Below are positions 1,128 to 8,925 of a stretch of 32,362 nt of DNA, in pieces. Made by a program: the position numbers and the translations under genes. The notes below the pieces were generated by a model. That model was given only the letters and a program-made list of their open reading frames with translations. It did no database searches and was not told where the DNA came from. The DNA is taken from assembly GCA_029261155.1 (NCBI GenBank), contig JAJDBW010000029.1, forward strand, positions 64,001 through 96,362, given 5' to 3'. The stretch's first letter is position 1; each line of letters starts with the position of its first letter. Origin of the DNA: Nitrospirota bacterium. GTDB lineage: Bacteria > Nitrospirota > Nitrospiria > SBBL01 > JAADHI01.

Positions 1128-1177
1128 AGGCAAGAGCGTATAGTAGGTGTTCAACAGAGTCAATATGGGATGTGTCC

Positions 1178-1648
1178 ATGCCGCAGAAGAAACGCCATGA
1201 CGATGTCGTCATTTCAAACCGCAAGGCCTTTCACGAATACTTTATCCTGGAAAAGTTCGAAAGCGGAATTTCCCTCCTGGGCACCGAGGTTAAATCCATC
1301 CGCGCGGGCCGCGTCAATTTAAAAGACAGCTTCGCCGGGCTTGAAAAGACTGAGCTCTATCTTTATAATTGTCATATCAGCCCTTACAGCCACGGCAACA
1401 TCGCCAACCACGAACCCGAGCGCCGCCGCAAGCTCCTGATCAAAAAAAAAGAGATCCAGCGCTTGATCGGAAAAACAAGGGAGAAAGGCCTGACCTTGGT
1501 TCCGCTGAAGATCTACTTCAAGGGAAGCTGGGCCAAAGTTGAGTTGGGCTTGGCCAAGGGCAAGAAGCTCCACGACAAGCGCGAGAGTGCCGCTAAGAAA
1601 ACGGCCAAGCGCGAAATCGAACGCGGCTTTCGCGAAAAAGGCGCTTGA
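1178..1648 (+). CDS. smpB: SsrA-binding protein SmpB
   Basis: SmpB binds the tRNA-like domain of tmRNA and brings it to ribosomes stalled on broken mRNA, so that the nascent chain is tagged and released. The 156-residue length is normal. Typical blocks are visible: NRKAFHEYFILEKFESGI near the N-terminus, LLGTEVKSIRAGRVNLKDSF, the HISPYSHGNIANHEPERRRKLL segment, LVPLKIYFKGSWAKVELGLAKGKKLHDKR, and a basic C-terminal tail (ESAAKKTAKREIERGF) that enters the empty mRNA channel. I choose ATG 1178, about seven bases behind a GGGA. A GTG at 1172 in the same frame would add two residues. The RNA partner ssrA follows 130 bases downstream on the same strand, a common and functionally sensible pairing. 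Confidence 0.97.
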   Translation: MPQKKRHDDVVISNRKAFHEYFILEKFESGISLLGTEVKSIRAGRVNLKDSFAGLEKTELYLYNCHISPYSHGNIANHEPERRRKLLIKKKEIQRLIGKTREKGLTLVPLKIYFKGSWAKVELGLAKGKKLHDKRESAAKKTAKREIERGFREKGA

Positions 1649-1898: not shown

Positions 1899-2051
1899 GG
1901 CAGTGACATCGACCCTCCGGGCCTGTGCGGAGGCAAGATGCCAGATAGCAGGCTGGCCCGTTCTAAGTGTCTCGCTAGACCGGGTAAGATCTAGAGGCTG
2001 GCAGCGGATGCAGCGTGTCTTTGCGCGATATCCAATGCGAGATTCAAATCA

Positions 2052-2088
2052 AAGACTAAGCATGTAGTTGGTCCTTGGCTCAAGATTT
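2052..2088 (+). repeat. direct repeat copy 1, inside tmRNA (att-like)
   Basis: This 37-base stretch of the tmRNA 3' half matches 2624-2660 with three mismatches and no gaps. The last 22 bases (2067-2088) are identical. tmRNA 3' ends are well-known integration sites for tyrosine-recombinase elements, so this is probably the gene-side half of an attachment-site scar. The repeat stops before the T arm, which is unusual for a simple attL/attR pair. Confidence 0.8.
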
Positions 2089-2126
2089 TCGGACGCGGGT
2101 TCAATTCCCGCCGCCTCCACCAAATC

Positions 2127-2161
2127 AAAAAAGCCCGGTGTTTTTCCGCCGGGCTTTTTTT
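2127..2161 (+). terminator. Rho-independent terminator of ssrA
   Basis: AAAAAAGCCCGG pairs with CCGGGCTTTTTT across a short loop, immediately behind the CCA end and followed by a run of T. It is a strong, symmetrical hairpin that could also act on the opposite strand. Confidence 0.92.
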
Positions 2162-2184
2162 GTGTCTACTGTTTCCCGTATATC

Positions 2185-2265
2185 ATTCCGACCTCCGAGC
2201 CGGAATCCAGCATTTTGTTACGAGTCCAACCCGTTCAAAAAACTGGATGCCGGATTGCGTCCGGC
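2185..2265. repeat. REP-like compound palindrome
   Basis: Two small hairpins flank a spacer: ATTCCG (2185-2190) with CGGAAT (2201-2206), and GCCGGA (2249-2254) with TCCGGC (2260-2265). The segments 2200-2210 and 2243-2253 also pair with each other with one mismatch (ATCCAG with CTGGAT). This nested layout is that of repetitive extragenic palindromes found between genes in many proteobacteria. Only one copy was noticed in this window. Confidence 0.6.
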
Positions 2266-2374
2266 AAGGATACCTTTTAAATGTGGGTGCTTCAATTTTG
2301 ACAAAGTATGGAAGTCATAAGATCATTTCAGAATCCGCACGATCACGCCGAAAACAGTATTGGAAGGAAATCGC

Positions 2375-2611
2375 ATGAGTGCTTCAAGTTTGCGCTTACC
2401 GGAATCGATACACCGGCACATCAAGGAAATTGCGAATAAGGAGGGCGTTTCGATCAACCAATTTATTTCGTCCGCGTTGTCCGAAAAGATCTCCGCCATC
2501 ATGACGGAAGATTATTTGAAAGAACGCGCCAAGAAAACGAAAAAGACCGAATTTAAGAAAATCTTAAAAAAGGTTCCGAGCCGCGATCCGCTTTCGGGGG
2601 ACGGGTTGTAG
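2375..2611 (+). CDS. Ribbon-helix-helix protein (antitoxin-like)
   Basis: A 78-residue protein whose first half fits the ribbon-helix-helix fold. A short strand (SSLRLPESIHRHIKEIA) is followed by a helix, the turn KEGVSINQFI, and a second helix ending in SALSEKISAI. This is typical of CopG/HicB-type repressors and antitoxins, which bind operator DNA as dimers through the strand. The C-terminal half is lysine-rich (ERAKKTKKTEFKKILKKV) and would be where a toxin-binding tail sits in such proteins. The ATG at 2375 has GGAAGG seven bases upstream, so I prefer it to the in-frame TTG at 2360. No toxin gene follows: the next 20 bases lead into the tmRNA-like repeat. It may be a solitary antitoxin or the remnant of a pair cut by element loss. 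Confidence 0.7.
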   Translation: MSASSLRLPESIHRHIKEIANKEGVSINQFISSALSEKISAIMTEDYLKERAKKTKKTEFKKILKKVPSRDPLSGDGL

Positions 2612-2623
2612 ATTGTCCCGCGT

Positions 2624-2660
2624 AAGACCTAGCATGTTGTTGGTCCTTGGCTCAAGATTT
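2624..2660 (+). repeat. direct repeat copy 2, tmRNA-derived (att-like scar)
   Basis: A second copy of 37 bases of ssrA (see 2052-2088), exactly 572 bases downstream in the same orientation. Similarity ends sharply after GATTT, and the T arm and acceptor strand are missing. Everything between the copies (terminator, palindrome, ribbon-helix-helix gene) would be the smallest unit bounded by them. Confidence 0.8.
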
Positions 2661-2696
2661 GTTGTTAATGCCTTTCGCTCCCCGCTTGCTTTTTGG

Positions 2697-2725
2697 TTGA
2701 CCTTTCACACTTCTTTTGCTACTAT
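2697..2725 (+). promoter_or_regulatory. sigma-70-type promoter giving a leaderless mRNA
   Basis: TTGACC (2697-2702) and TACTAT (2720-2725) are separated by exactly 17 bases. The expected start of transcription is about 2732, one or two bases before the ATG at 2734. There is no Shine-Dalgarno sequence between the -10 and the ATG (CACACACC), so the transcript for the following two genes appears to be leaderless. Confidence 0.7.
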
Positions 2726-2733
2726 CACACACC

Positions 2734-3129
2734 ATGAATTACTCCGAATATCTACAACTTAAAAAAGACATCGAAAACGAGTACCGAAAAAACCTTGATG
2801 CCTTGGAGCTTGTGTGGAAGCGGTCGCAAAATGTACTTTCTCGCACACAGCAAGGCAATAAGATAGAAGCACCTGGGGTTGATCAACCCCTTTCTGAGGC
2901 GGTTCGACTTGTGATCGCACAAATGGACAAAGATTTCACGGCCGATTTAATTGAGATAGGGCTGAGTGACCATAATTATAATGAAGGTAAACTAGTAAAC
3001 CGAGTTTCACTTACAAACACACTTCATCGGCTATGGCGGCGCGGAGAAATTGAGTTAATAAAAAAAGGAAGAGGGCGAACTCCATCAGCGTACCGCAGAA
3101 AGCCTTCTGAAAACAATAATCCTTCATAA
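2734..3129 (+). CDS. Unrecognised protein with a winged-helix-like C-terminal half
   Basis: 131 residues. The N-terminal 45 residues are charged and probably helical (NYSEYLQLKKDIENEYRK). The middle to C-terminal part (SEAVRLVIAQMDKDFTADLI, then VNRVSLTNTLHRLWRRGEIELIKKG with a basic end RGRTPSAYRR) resembles a winged helix-turn-helix: recognition helix NRVSLTNTLHRLWRRG, then a beta wing IELIKKGRGRTPSAYR. I start at ATG 2734, not TTG 2716, because 2716 lies inside the spacer of the promoter. AT-rich codon use differs from the flanking smpB and prp genes. It is followed by dinD after 18 bases and probably forms one operon with it. A DNA-binding or regulatory role is an inference; I do not recognise the family. 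Confidence 0.6.
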   Translation: MNYSEYLQLKKDIENEYRKNLDALELVWKRSQNVLSRTQQGNKIEAPGVDQPLSEAVRLVIAQMDKDFTADLIEIGLSDHNYNEGKLVNRVSLTNTLHRLWRRGEIELIKKGRGRTPSAYRRKPSENNNPS

Positions 3130-3147
3130 AGAAGGGGGACGTTAATC

Positions 3148-3981
3148 ATGGATGATGAAGTTGTGTCCGGTGGGGGTTCATCTGACTTTGAAGAAATCCG
3201 TAGAAGAAACGAGCACGGCATAGATTGGTGGTCAAGTCGTGATTTTGCGAGGGTTTTAGATTATTCCAGTTACGTTAATTTTGAAGGGGTTATAACGAAG
3301 GCAAAACAAGCATGTTTCAATAGCGGGCATGATGTAAAAGATCATTTCGTTGGTGTCAACGATATGATCGAAGTGGGTAAGGGTGCAAAACGAGCAGTAA
3401 AGAGTGTAATGCTAACACGTTATGCCTGCTACTTGATAATTCAAAATGCCCATCCATCCAAAGAGATAATTGCCAAAGGCCAAACTTATTTTGCCGTTCA
3501 AACTAGACGGCAAGAATTAGGTGATGAACAAGCTGAACGAGAAAGAAGACTGCACATAAGAGAGGAACTTAAAACTCACAATCAGCGTTTAATGGGTACG
3601 GTGAAACAAGCAGGAATTGTGGCGTCAATGGATTATGCCATATTTCAAAATCATGGTTATCGGGGGTTATATGGTGGTCTGAATTCTAAAGACATCCACA
3701 GAAAAAAGGGTTTGAAGAAAAGTGAGCAAATTTTGGATCATATGGGAAGCACCGAATTAGCAGCCAACCTTTTTAGGGCGACTCAAACAGAAGAAAAGAT
3801 AAAGCGGGATAAAATTACAGGAAAAGAGAACGCGAATAATGCTCATTATGAAGTAGGAAGAAAAGTCCGTAGAACGATTGAAGAGATTGGCGGAACTCAA
3901 CCGGAGAATCTTCCTACGGCTGAAAGCCTAAAAAAGATCGGGGCTAAGCGGAAAAGGGCCTTAAGTAAAGGAGAGGAATAA
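3148..3981 (+). CDS. dinD: DNA-damage-inducible protein D (DinD)
   Basis: 277 residues, close to E. coli DinD (about 275). Family blocks are clear: WWSSRDFARVLDYSSYVNF, VKDHFVGVNDMIEVGKGAKR, LTRYACYLIIQNAHPSKE, KGQTYFAVQTRRQEL, AIFQNHGYRGLYGGL, KKGLKKSEQILDHMGSTE and LAANLFRATQTEEK. The N-terminal part belongs to the BRO-N-like group shared with phage antirepressors. In E. coli, DinD is SOS-induced and interferes with RecA filaments. A GGGGG ribosome-binding site lies nine bases before the ATG. No LexA-type operator could be recognised upstream. The gene is AT-richer than its surroundings and lies in a block next to tmRNA, both consistent with horizontal arrival. A terminator follows. Confidence 0.93.
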   Translation: MDDEVVSGGGSSDFEEIRRRNEHGIDWWSSRDFARVLDYSSYVNFEGVITKAKQACFNSGHDVKDHFVGVNDMIEVGKGAKRAVKSVMLTRYACYLIIQNAHPSKEIIAKGQTYFAVQTRRQELGDEQAERERRLHIREELKTHNQRLMGTVKQAGIVASMDYAIFQNHGYRGLYGGLNSKDIHRKKGLKKSEQILDHMGSTELAANLFRATQTEEKIKRDKITGKENANNAHYEVGRKVRRTIEEIGGTQPENLPTAESLKKIGAKRKRALSKGEE

Positions 3982-4040
3982 CCATCAACGACGGTGACTT
4001 AAGGTGTCCGTTTATAGTTTTGTACCTCATCGTTTCCAAA

Positions 4041-4078
4041 TTAAAAAAAACCGGTGAAAAGTAGCCGGGTTTTTTTAA
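4041..4078 (+). terminator. Rho-independent terminator behind dinD
   Basis: TTAAAAAAAACCGG pairs with CCGGGTTTTTTTAA with one internal mismatch, ending in a run of seven T. It closes the 2734-3981 operon. The 130 bases from here to the Fic start show no gene. Confidence 0.85.
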
Positions 4079-4210
4079 TGTCTTACTGGTGAATTTCGGC
4101 CTGGGTTTTACCCTAAGAATAAGAAGATGATCAGATGGTGTTGAAGCCGGTATTGCCGAAAAATAATGTTAGCCAATTCAAGAAGAAGCTGTCAGGAAAG
4201 AAAATTTAAC

Positions 4211-5251
4211 ATGAACCATTTCACCCCAAAATTCACCCTCACCCACCGCATGACCTCCGCTCTCACGCAAGTCGAGCGGGCACGGGGCTTTCTGGAAGCG
4301 GCCAAGCTCTCCGCCGACTGGCTGCAAGAGATGGGGGACCGGGCGTTGATTTTAGAAGCCCACCACACCACCCACATCGAAGGTACGCGGCTGACCTTGG
4401 ATCAGGCCGAGCGCCTGTGGAGGGGCGAGGCCGTGCCGGAGGCCGATCCTAACGATACACTGGAGCTATTGAATTACCGTAGGGCTTTTGAGTTTGTCTC
4501 CGAGGCGCTGGACAATGGCGATCCGATCACCGAGGGGTTGATTTGCGAGATTCACCGCTTGTTGGTTGAAGACGTTCGGGGCGGAGAGGCTTCCCCAGGA
4601 AAATACCGGCGGATTCAGAATTACATCGGCAATGTTGCCACGGGAGAAATCGTTTATACGCCACCTTCGGCAAAGGCGGTTCCCGTGCTCATGTCGGCGC
4701 TGGTTGGCTGGCTCAACGCCGATTTGGACGTGCATCCGGTGCTGGTGAGCGGCATCGCGCAGTTTCAGTTGGTGCATATTCATCCCTTTCGCGATGGCAA
4801 CGGAAGAACCTCTCGTTTGCTATCGACCCTCTGTTTGTACAAAGCCGGGTACGATTTCAAGCGCCTGTTTACCATCAGCGAATACTACGACCGCGACCGC
4901 CGTACTTTTTACGATGCCATTCAAGGCGTGCGGGAAAACGACATGGACCTCACCGGTTGGCTCGACTACTTTGTCACCGGCCTGGAAACCCAGATGGTGG
5001 AGGTGAAAGAGCGCGGCGATCAGGTCATCCGCCGGGATGTGCTTGTGAATAAGCATGGTCTCAACGCGCGGCAGGGGAAGGCCTTGGGCTTCCTCATGCA
5101 GCACGGCAAGTTGACCATTCAGGATTTCGAAGCACTTTTCCCCGAGGTCAACCGGCGTAGTCTGCAGCGCGACCTGAAAGGCATGTTGGAGAAGGGATTA
5201 CTGATATCGGAAGGCGAAACCAACCAACTGGTCTATCGCCTGAAGGCCTGA
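4211..5251 (+). CDS. Fic family protein (class II, self-inhibited)
   Basis: 346 residues. Fic enzymes transfer AMP, or another nucleotide-derived group, to protein side chains. The active-site loop [12 protein letters not shown] (about residues 191-202) has every consensus residue of HxFx[DE]GNGRxxR, so it should be active. An inhibitory helix motif [ST]xxxE[GN] appears at residues 53-58 (TTHIEG), ahead of the Fic core, making this the class II, N-terminally inhibited type. The flap precedes the core as [17 protein letters not shown]. The C-terminal 80 residues look like a winged helix ([38 protein letters not shown]), as in many long Fic proteins. I take ATG 4211, which has AGGAAAG upstream, over an in-frame start at 4166. 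It is monocistronic. GC content is back to the chromosomal level, so it may not belong to the dinD block. Confidence 0.92.
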
Positions 5252-5483: not shown

Positions 5484-5519
5484 GAATATGTCAGGATTGT
5501 ATGCCTTGGAGTGAAGTCC

Positions 5520-6902
5520 ATGGGAAAATCCACAGCCACCCTTGCCGCGCGGCTCGCCCGCTATAGCCAACAGATCGATTATCTTAATTTTCCGCCCGAT
5601 GTCATCCACGAGGTCAAGCGCCGTTTGATCGATAGCTTGGCTTGCGCCTTGGGCGGCTGGCGAAGCCAGGCTTCTCAGATTGCCCGGAAGATGGGAAGCC
5701 GCGTTCGCCTTAATGAGGGTGCGACCCTGCTGGGCACGCGCCATCAAACCACGCCCGACCTGGCTGCCTTTGCCAACGGCACCGCGATTCGCTACCTCGA
5801 TTATAACGACACTTATCTTTCCAAGGAACCCGCGCATCCCAGCGATAATATTTCCGCCGCCTTGGCGGCCGCGGAATATGTGGGTGCAAGCGGCAAACGT
5901 TTGATCGAAGCCATCGTGATCGCTTACGAGATCCAATGCCGCCTTTGCGATGCAGCGGCTCTGCGTCCACGCGGTTGGGATCATGTCACTTATGGACCCT
6001 TTTCCACCGCGCTGTTGTGTGCGAAGCTTTGGCGGCTGAGCGAAAGTAAAACCGTGCATGCCTTGGGGCTTGCCGGAAACCCGAACAACGCGCTTCGGCA
6101 AACCCGGGTGGGCCATCTCTCGATGTGGAAGGGGGTGGCCTTTGCCAACGCTGCGCGGAATGGTGTTTTTGCTGCGGAACTGGCGCGCTTGGGCATGAGC
6201 GGTCCCGCCCCCATCTTCGAGGGCGAAAAAGGATTTATGAAAATCGTCTCCGGCGCATTCAAGCTCGCAGCCCTTCGTCCCAAGGGACCTTTTAAAATCA
6301 TGGACACCTATATTAAATACTATCCCGTGGAATACCATGCGCAGAGCGCTGTACAGGCCGCGCTGAATCTCCGGAATAAGTTACCGAAGGACTTTTTAAA
6401 AAAGATCGAAGCCATTCGCGTGCGGACCTCCGATATTTCCTATGAGATCATCGGGAATGATCCCGACAAGTGGCATCCCCAGTCGCGTGAGACGGCCGAT
6501 CATTCTCTGCCCTACATCGTCGCCGTCGCCCTGATGGATGGCCGAGTCGGGCTGGCGCAATTTAACGACCATCACCTAAGAGATCCAAAACTACGCCGCC
6601 TCATTCAAAAGGTCCGCATCTTTTCCGACAAGACGCATTCCCTTTTGTACGGAAAGACGATGGGCAATACGGTATCGGTCAAAATCCAGGGCAAGACATA
6701 TAGTGAAAGGGTGGATTTGCCCAAGGGTTTTCCGGGAAACGAGATGAGCGACGCGGAGGTCGAATCGAAATTCCAGTCGATGGCGGCGCCCCTTTTTTCC
6801 GAGCGCACCACACAAAACATTCTCGATACGATTTGGGCGCTGGAAAAAGAAAAAACGATTGGCCCTCTGCTGAAGCTTTTTGAAGTGAGGGGGGAAAAGT
6901 GA
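5520..6902 (+). CDS. prpD: MmgE/PrpD family 2-methylcitrate dehydratase
   Basis: 460 residues. PrpD dehydrates 2-methylcitrate to 2-methyl-cis-aconitate in the methylcitrate cycle. MmgE/PrpD features are visible: VKRRLIDSLACALGGW near the N-terminus, ANGTAIRYLDYNDTYLSKEPAHPSDNI around residues 82-108 (the conserved RxLDYND motif), then AYEIQCRL, WKGVAFANAARNGVFAA, YIKYYPVEYHAQSAVQAAL and ETADHSLPYIVAVALMDG. Length fits the family. The ATG at 5520 has GGAG eight bases upstream, so I prefer it to GTG 5511. Its stop overlaps the prpB start by four bases (GTGA). With prpB and prpC next, the substrate assignment is strong by context. The family also holds iminosuccinate and other lyases, so function from sequence alone would be less certain. 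Confidence 0.9.
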   Translation: MGKSTATLAARLARYSQQIDYLNFPPDVIHEVKRRLIDSLACALGGWRSQASQIARKMGSRVRLNEGATLLGTRHQTTPDLAAFANGTAIRYLDYNDTYLSKEPAHPSDNISAALAAAEYVGASGKRLIEAIVIAYEIQCRLCDAAALRPRGWDHVTYGPFSTALLCAKLWRLSESKTVHALGLAGNPNNALRQTRVGHLSMWKGVAFANAARNGVFAAELARLGMSGPAPIFEGEKGFMKIVSGAFKLAALRPKGPFKIMDTYIKYYPVEYHAQSAVQAALNLRNKLPKDFLKKIEAIRVRTSDISYEIIGNDPDKWHPQSRETADHSLPYIVAVALMDGRVGLAQFNDHHLRDPKLRRLIQKVRIFSDKTHSLLYGKTMGNTVSVKIQGKTYSERVDLPKGFPGNEMSDAEVESKFQSMAAPLFSERTTQNILDTIWALEKEKTIGPLLKLFEVRGEK

Positions 6903-7798
6903 AGGACCGATCCCCCGGCCTGCGCCTCCGATCCATCCTCAAAGAAAAGCCTATTTTGTTGCCGGGGGCCTTTAACGCCCTTTCCGCCCAACTGATCGAA
7001 CAGGCTGGTTTCGATGCGGTATATATTTCCGGTGCGGGTTTGGCCAATGGGGTGGCGGGCTTGCCGGACATCGGACTTTTGAGTCTTAGGGAGGTGGTCT
7101 CGCAGGTCAACTATATTACCGATGCGGTAAAGATCCCGGCCCTTGCCGACGCCGATACGGGCTTTGGGGAAGGCGTCCATTTCCTCCGGGCCCTGGCCGC
7201 CTTTGAAGCGGCGGGCGTCGCAGGCATTCAAATTGAAGATCAACAGTTTCCGAAACGCTGTGGGCATCTTTCGGGAAAACAGCTGATCACTGCCGATGCC
7301 ATGGCGCAAAAAATCCGAGCGGCAGCATCGCATCGCCAAGATCCCAATTTGATGATCGTCGCACGGACGGATGCGAGAGGCGTGACCGATTTAAAGGATG
7401 CCATCGATCGGGCCCAACGCTATCTTGATGCGGGCGCCGATATCATTTTTCCAGAAGCCTTGCAGTCGGAAGATGAGTTTTCCGAATTTGCACAAAAAGT
7501 GAAGGCACCCCTACTGGCGAACATGACGGAGTTTGGCTTAAGTCCGGTCCTCTCCGCCGACGCGTTTTTTGCGATGGGCTATCGGATCGTCCTGTTTCCC
7601 ATGACGCTTTTTCGGATTGCCGCCGGGGCGATGGAAAGCGGGCTCGAACAATTAAAAAAAGAAGGGAGCGCCGAGAAGATGATTGAGGGCATGCAAACAC
7701 GTGAAGCGCTTTATCGTTTAATCCGCTATGACGACTATGAACAACGCGATCAAGAAATGGCCTTGGATCGCCTTAAACGAGAAGGGGAAGACCGATGA
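6899..7798 (+). CDS. prpB: Methylisocitrate lyase
   Basis: 299 residues, the usual length. PrpB splits 2-methylisocitrate into pyruvate and succinate. It belongs to the PEP mutase/isocitrate lyase superfamily of TIM barrels. Metal-binding DADTGFG lies at residues 84-90 and the catalytic-loop motif PKRCGH at 119-123, with the key Cys at 121. AARTD-type sequence (MIVARTDAR) and the methylisocitrate-lyase end (RIVLFPMTLFRIAAGAM) also fit. The N-terminal PGAFNALSAQLIEQAGFDAVYISGAG is the standard opening. The start is GTG, overlapping the prpD stop, so its translation is coupled. The next gene begins in an ATGA overlap. Confidence 0.95.
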   Translation: MKDRSPGLRLRSILKEKPILLPGAFNALSAQLIEQAGFDAVYISGAGLANGVAGLPDIGLLSLREVVSQVNYITDAVKIPALADADTGFGEGVHFLRALAAFEAAGVAGIQIEDQQFPKRCGHLSGKQLITADAMAQKIRAAASHRQDPNLMIVARTDARGVTDLKDAIDRAQRYLDAGADIIFPEALQSEDEFSEFAQKVKAPLLANMTEFGLSPVLSADAFFAMGYRIVLFPMTLFRIAAGAMESGLEQLKKEGSAEKMIEGMQTREALYRLIRYDDYEQRDQEMALDRLKREGEDR

Positions 7799-8925
7799 GC
7801 GCGCCCGTGATTCCTGGCTTGGATGGGGTTTTGGCGGGCGATTCCGCCATCTGCGAGGTTGACCACGAGGGGGGCGGCTTACGTTACCGAGGTTATTCGA
7901 TTGAAGACCTTAGCGCGCAGGCCTCTTTTGAAGAGGTGGCCTTCCTTCTTCTGTTCGGCACCCTTCCGAATCAAAAAGATTTGAATACCTTTCAAGACGC
8001 CCTGGTTGCTGCGCGTAGCGTGCCGGCCTATGTTCTCGATTTTTTAGCGGCGATCCCGGAATCGGTGAATCGGATGGATGCCCTGCGAACGGCGGTGTCC
8101 ATTCTGGGCCTCGATGATCCCGACACGGGGTCGAACGCGCATGCGGCCAACCTTCGGAAGGCCGTCCGTTTATGCGCACAGCTCCCGGCGCTTTTGGGCG
8201 CCTTGGCGAATCCATCCGAAGAGAAGAATACGAAACCGCCGGAAGAAGGGCCGCGCGGGCATGCCGAATATCTTTTAAGCCTGCTCGGCCAAGAGGCACC
8301 TGAGGCCTTGTCTATCAAGGTCATCGATGTCTCACTTATTCTTTACGCGGAACACGAATTTAACGCCTCGACCTTTGCCGCGCGGGTGACGGCCTCCTCG
8401 ATGTCGGATTTTCATTCCGCCGTAACCTCGGCCATCGGTACCTTAAAAGGGCCGCTGCACGGTGGGGCGAACGAAGCGGTGATGGCCATGCTCTTGAACA
8501 TCGAGGCAGAAGGCGATGTGCAGCGTTATTTGAGCGAGCGCTTGGCGAAGAAAGAAAAGATCATGGGTTTCGGCCATCGCGTACTGAGGAAGGGCGATCC
8601 GCGTTCGGATATTATTAAAGGCCATGCGAAATCATTGGGTGAAGCGCGTGGAGAGTTGAAGTGGGCCTCCCTCTCCGCGGAAATCGAGGAGACGATGTTG
8701 CGGGAGAAGGGGCTTTATCCGAATTTGGATTTTTATTCGGCCTCGGCCTATTATCTTTTGGGCCTTCCGATTTCGATTTATACCCCGCTTTTTGTCTGCA
8801 GCCGCATCACCGGCTGGGCCGCCCACATTATGGAACAGCACGACAGCAACCGCCTCATCCGTCCCCGATGCCGCTATACAGGCGAAGGCCCGCGTCCCTT
8901 CCCCCCCTTAGCAGGGAGAGCTTGA
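7795..8925 (+). CDS. prpC: 2-methylcitrate synthase / citrate synthase
   Basis: 376 residues, the length of short bacterial type I-like citrate and methylcitrate synthases. It condenses propionyl-CoA (or acetyl-CoA) with oxaloacetate. Active-site residues are in place: His187 (LYAEHEFNAST), His222 (GPLHGGANEAV), His261 (MGFGHRVLRKGDPR) and Asp312 (NLDFYSASAYYLLGLP). The N-terminal block GGGLRYRGYSIEDLS is typical. The end (AHIMEQHDSNRLIRPRCRYTG) holds the CoA/oxaloacetate arginine. It overlaps prpB by four bases and is the last gene of the operon. Context makes methylcitrate synthase the best call, although these enzymes often use both acyl-CoAs. A small convergent gene ends nine bases downstream. 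Confidence 0.92.
   Translation: MSAPVIPGLDGVLAGDSAICEVDHEGGGLRYRGYSIEDLSAQASFEEVAFLLLFGTLPNQKDLNTFQDALVAARSVPAYVLDFLAAIPESVNRMDALRTAVSILGLDDPDTGSNAHAANLRKAVRLCAQLPALLGALANPSEEKNTKPPEEGPRGHAEYLLSLLGQEAPEALSIKVIDVSLILYAEHEFNASTFAARVTASSMSDFHSAVTSAIGTLKGPLHGGANEAVMAMLLNIEAEGDVQRYLSERLAKKEKIMGFGHRVLRKGDPRSDIIKGHAKSLGEARGELKWASLSAEIEETMLREKGLYPNLDFYSASAYYLLGLPISIYTPLFVCSRITGWAAHIMEQHDSNRLIRPRCRYTGEGPRPFPPLAGRA

Follow-up and report, generated by a model that had tools for sequence, protein, structure and literature searches.

Two ssrA-derived scars behind an intact tmRNA gene of a Nitrospirota bacterium: probable relics of inserted mobile DNA

Behind the intact tmRNA gene (ssrA) of an uncultured Nitrospirota bacterium of the class Nitrospiria, a piece of the same gene is present a second time and breaks off before the T arm. 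How did this piece come to lie there, and where is the end of the tmRNA that should follow it? The locus was investigated in the window, i.e., the whole stretch of 32,362 nucleotides that was analysed, and was compared with one other genome of the genus (G001) and six more of the family; G004 belongs to the same family and G008 to the same order. The features are listed in Table 1.

Table 1. Features of the window around ssrA and its two scars.
Feature	Position	Strand	Remarks
smpB, native neighbour of ssrA	1172..1648	+	Pfam SmpB 2e-61
ssrA (tmRNA), intact, tag ANDQLALAA	1778..2122	+	ARAGORN; Rfam RF00023, 211.7 bits
Original copy of the repeat: GACTAAGCATGTA + P2 3' strand, tmRNA nt 275-311	2052..2088	+	ends at T arm
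ssrA intrinsic terminator	2123..2165	+	common to G002, G004, G006
Palindrome TCATTCC..GGAATCCAG	2183..2210	.	single-copy in genome
3'-end remnant of PIN-toxin gene	2345..2374	+	matches end of G004 PIN_3/TIGR00305 gene
Orphan RHH (HicB/CopG-like) antitoxin, 78 aa	2375..2611	+	Pfam HicB 8.5e-8
Scar 1: partial ssrA copy (P2 3' strand)	2624..2660	+	34/37 identical
orf131, without family	2734..3129	+	unmatched in 57 relatives
DinD-like Bro-N protein	3148..3981	+	PRK11525 3.1e-115; PADLOC PDC-S13; phage matches
Scar 2: CCA, terminator and flank of ssrA in a diverged copy	4036..4088	+	alignment score 24
Fic-domain protein (SoFic-like)	4211..5251	+	GC 0.57, outside AT-rich block
prpD-prpB-prpC operon	5511..8925	+	family-conserved, yet not beside ssrA in relatives examined

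Alignment and a genome search confirmed the 37-bp tmRNA repeat of the original prediction. The segments 2052–2088 and 2624–2660 form a direct repeat at a spacing of 572 bases with three mismatches, all of them in the first 15 nt, and the last 22 nt are identical. The copy consists of GACTAAGCATGTA followed by the 3' strand of helix P2. According to the Rfam structure line it ends exactly at the start of the T arm, as had been claimed. A genome-wide search with window positions 1990–2190 found just two places, the copy having an E value of 2.8e-8; the copy scored 54.5 bits, whereas the 15 kb downstream, shuffled 200 times under a first-order Markov model, gave at most 27.6 bits. Chance and a dispersed repeat unrelated to tmRNA, the latter named beforehand as an origin that would speak against the prediction, were both rejected, given the two genomic places and a score far above the shuffles. 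Folding of RNA at the copy was no better than that of shuffles (z about +1), and no 5' or tag-coding part of the tmRNA could be traced near 2624. The scar-1 copy was absent from every other genome searched, and gene order differs in the relatives; conserved order with both copies in related genomes, also named beforehand as evidence against the prediction, was not found.

Between the two copies, the terminator, a palindrome and a ribbon-helix-helix (RHH) gene are present as described in the original prediction, but the palindrome had been taken for a REP-like element. The perfect palindrome is present at a single place in the genome and also lies 3' of the ssrA terminator in G002, a genome of a related genus; it is therefore not a dispersed REP, and that assignment was rejected. 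The palindrome is probably native ssrA flank. The terminator and the palindrome after the intact ssrA match the native right flank in G002 (shuffle p about 0.01), so that the flank of the intact gene looks undisturbed.

The RHH antitoxin shared 85% amino acid identity with that of G004 and 74% with that of G008, both of which come from intact PIN-RHH pairs. At the nucleotide level, window 2345–2610 was 83% identical to G004 2674–2938. The window antitoxin is thus akin to those of intact PIN (TIGR00305)/HicB-like RHH modules, but an intact PIN toxin gene is absent beside it, about 30 bases of the 3' end being left. Since the antitoxin is so similar to that of G004 and the bases before it are the end of a PIN gene, the window antitoxin has been orphaned by loss of its toxin gene. 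The gene order in G004 is ssrA, PIN toxin, RHH antitoxin, ssrA end copy, EcoRII-type restriction system and ABC transporter, the last being native and common to G002. The ssrA copy of G004, 88% identical over 51 nt, begins at the T loop, includes the terminator and lies 774 nt from the intact gene. The ssrA piece follows the antitoxin stop after 1 nt in G004 and after 12 nt in the window; a T-loop remnant in this 12-nt spacer (TCCCGC) was not significant (p 0.13). In G008 the same PIN-RHH pair is located away from ssrA, which shows that the pair also exists without it. A long inverted repeat (GGGCACCTCTAAAAACC...GGTTTTTAGAGGTGCCC) lies 3' of the pair in G008 (L098:4160–4310) and is possibly a miniature transposable element.

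Beyond the second copy, the predicted AT-rich block is present and extends over 2661–4035, with a GC content of 0.42 compared with 0.53–0.56 around it and a scar on either side. No homologue of orf131 was found in 57 relatives or in plasmids, and the protein falls into no recognisable family. The window dinD is related to dinD genes borne on phages and satellite phages. The orf131-dinD block occurs in no relative examined. At its far end, 4036–4088 aligns with the ssrA CCA, the terminator and the following bases with a score of 24, a second scar that the first reading of the sequence had overlooked. The fetched ssrA loci, this one and the related ones, were all scanned on both strands in 55,544 windows of 100 nt; a score of at least 24 against the ssrA CCA and terminator was reached solely by ssrA ends and displaced fragments of family members and by window 4000–4100. 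Synthetic random A-tract terminators attained this score in 0.1% of cases, and scar 2 is recognisable solely by its terminator-like stretch with the flanks. No trace of a decayed T arm was detected adjoining scar 1 or scar 2 (p 0.4 and 0.99).

That tmRNA serves as an integrase target, as the original prediction assumed, was borne out in this lineage, where ssrA is an insertion hotspot. P4-type tyrosine integrases lie directly 3' of ssrA in G001 and G006, the island of G001 continuing past the end of its contig, and displaced ssrA fragments reaching from the T loop to the terminator were found in G002, G004 and G006, those of G002 and G006 bearing the native terminator of the family. Every clean displaced fragment in the family begins at the T loop and is without P2, which speaks against a recombination target further 5' in tmRNA, one of the options that had been offered. 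Among 98 Nitrospiria ssrA regions, forward partial tmRNA copies were present downstream in seven (the window, G004, G114, G056, G078, G066, and G023), whereas a control on the reverse strand yielded none among 95. No integrase lay between the tmRNA copies in any of the seven, and a P4-type integrase adjoined ssrA in 3 of the 98 regions. One ancestral tmRNA copy is common to G056 and G078, where its location and the genes preceding it agree. Its acceptor side is mostly kept in G078 and lost in G056, direct evidence that decay can take away the acceptor end.

Defence genes 3' of ssrA comprised a type I restriction system with an integrase in G001 (L032), an EcoRII restriction system in G004 (L035), CRISPR-Cas including cas3 and cas1 in G007 (L039), and a restriction methylase in G008 (L040). 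In G066 (L186), two identical 76-bp repeats, each consisting of CCACCA and 70 bp of downstream flank, enclose a HipBA toxin-antitoxin pair behind ssrA; this is a recent, clean insertion with no integrase. In G114 (L141), the stretch from ssrA to a displaced acceptor-terminator copy encodes a radical-SAM/helix-hairpin-helix protein and a DUF4130 protein, again with no integrase. In G023 (L048), a second tmRNA copy, 258 nt long and 98% identical, lies 3.8 kb downstream; a SNF2/SWIM helicase gene separates the two copies, and part of the region upstream of ssrA is duplicated too.

On balance we favour, if by a limited measure, the view that 2624–2660 and 4036–4088 are the two halves of one decayed, displaced ssrA 3' fragment left by hotspot insertions. 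A split of this fragment, with P2 on the left, the acceptor end and terminator on the right, and the T arm lost, is the probable reason why the copy ends ahead of the T arm. Mobile DNA with a PIN-RHH pair would have entered behind ssrA, as in G004, so that the intact gene stayed on the left and a 3' copy was displaced to the right. The AT-rich orf131-dinD block may then have inserted into this copy in or close to the T arm, where crossover usually takes place, and so parted the P2 strand from the CCA and terminator. Erosion would account for the loss of the T arm, of most of the toxin gene and of any integrase. The single-fragment origin of both pieces, the order of events and the action of an integrase are what we infer. 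The second ssrA scar makes a degraded element and tandem insertions the best-fitting options of the original prediction.

Several observations stand against the split fragment. A simple insertion would shift the native flank to the far side, but a native-like flank directly follows the intact ssrA. Neither scar has a recognisable T arm beside it, and the clean displaced fragments of the family are without P2. In the search for the missing integrase that had been proposed, no match to PF00589 or PF00239 (tyrosine and serine recombinases) was found on the 96-kb contig. The predicted integration scar therefore holds in part: the hotspot and the second scar argue for it, while the integrase-free contig and the undisturbed-looking flank do not.

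The main rival for the 37-nt copy is templated filler, in which a nearby ssrA stretch was copied during repair or template switching, with no site-specific recombination, and placed at the point where foreign DNA coming in met the truncated remnant of the toxin-antitoxin pair. The copy is indeed located at the junction of two foreign blocks, its ends match neither the T loop nor the acceptor end, and the native-like flank and the lack of any T-arm trace would also agree with filler. It is nevertheless a possible rather than a likely origin, leaving unexplained both scar 2 and the ssrA piece behind the same antitoxin gene in G004. Integration would also be unnecessary if the whole ssrA region had been duplicated and the second ssrA had decayed to fragments while genes were inserted. 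The large tmRNA copy of G023, with its duplicated upstream part, speaks for such an event; near 2624, however, the 5' and tag-coding parts cannot be traced, and the place after the antitoxin stop would be a coincidence, so that we regard duplication as unlikely.

The block of 22 perfectly identical nt with its sharp end at the T arm could also be read as the true attachment core of an integrase targeting the P2 strand, a site further 5' in tmRNA. Yet the contig has no integrase, a search of viral and GTDB contigs (phages and other species) with an exact 21-base pattern gave no match, and P2-only tmRNA copies were present in none of the 97 other Nitrospiria ssrA regions. Moreover, crossover at P2 would not restore the 3' end of the tmRNA. 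Such an integrase appears highly improbable.

The split fragment can be compared with known systems. Cis-mobilizable elements are islands that have att ends and lack a recombinase. The window resembles them in its integrase-less cargo between ssrA and an ssrA fragment, for which G004 and G066 are clean cases, but both of its ends are degraded and, as far as the bases tell, no functional att ends appear to be left. In Dehalococcoides, tandem low-GC insertions lie behind ssrA and are bounded by partial ssrA copies; 15 of 31 such islands are without an integration module, crossover takes place in the T loop, and the cargo includes CRISPR modules (PMC3146451). The window likewise has integrase-less low-GC DNA behind ssrA between partial ssrA copies. 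The Dehalococcoides copies, however, are clean 20-bp 3' ends, whereas the window has an internal P2 segment and a diverged CCA and terminator, with the T arm gone (PMC3146451).

Islander found tmRNA to be the most enriched target and asks for an integrase and an end fragment in an island no shorter than 2 kb; internal fragments and candidates without an integrase are rejected (PMC4383910). Like the islands in tRNA and tmRNA genes that it reports, the window has an intact tmRNA gene and a displaced downstream fragment in the same orientation, and its block is absent from relatives and foreign in composition (the GC contents given above). It differs in that the fragment is internal, 2624–2660 stopping before the T arm and the terminator-like piece lying apart at 4036–4088, so that no 3'-end fragment reaches the acceptor end, and in that no integrase lies within the island (PMC4383910). 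The locus is a heavily decayed example of the known integrase-less ssrA islands, with an unusual split fragment.

A wider reading is that small integrase-less cassettes with toxin-antitoxin, repair and restriction genes move in and out behind Nitrospiria ssrA by means of integrases acting in trans, each leaving part of the tmRNA and its terminator, with the window holding two stacked and decayed ones; we consider this rather unlikely. Most likely, the locus is the worn remains of mobile DNA inserted at the ssrA hotspot, an ordinary event with an unusual split scar. It shows what a long-decayed ssrA island looks like when its fragment is split and the T arm is lost, leaving only an orphan antitoxin, one helix strand and a copy of the terminator. 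Such sites are overlooked by island finders that require an integrase and an end fragment, and all seven of the surveyed partial copies are of the kind with no integrase between.
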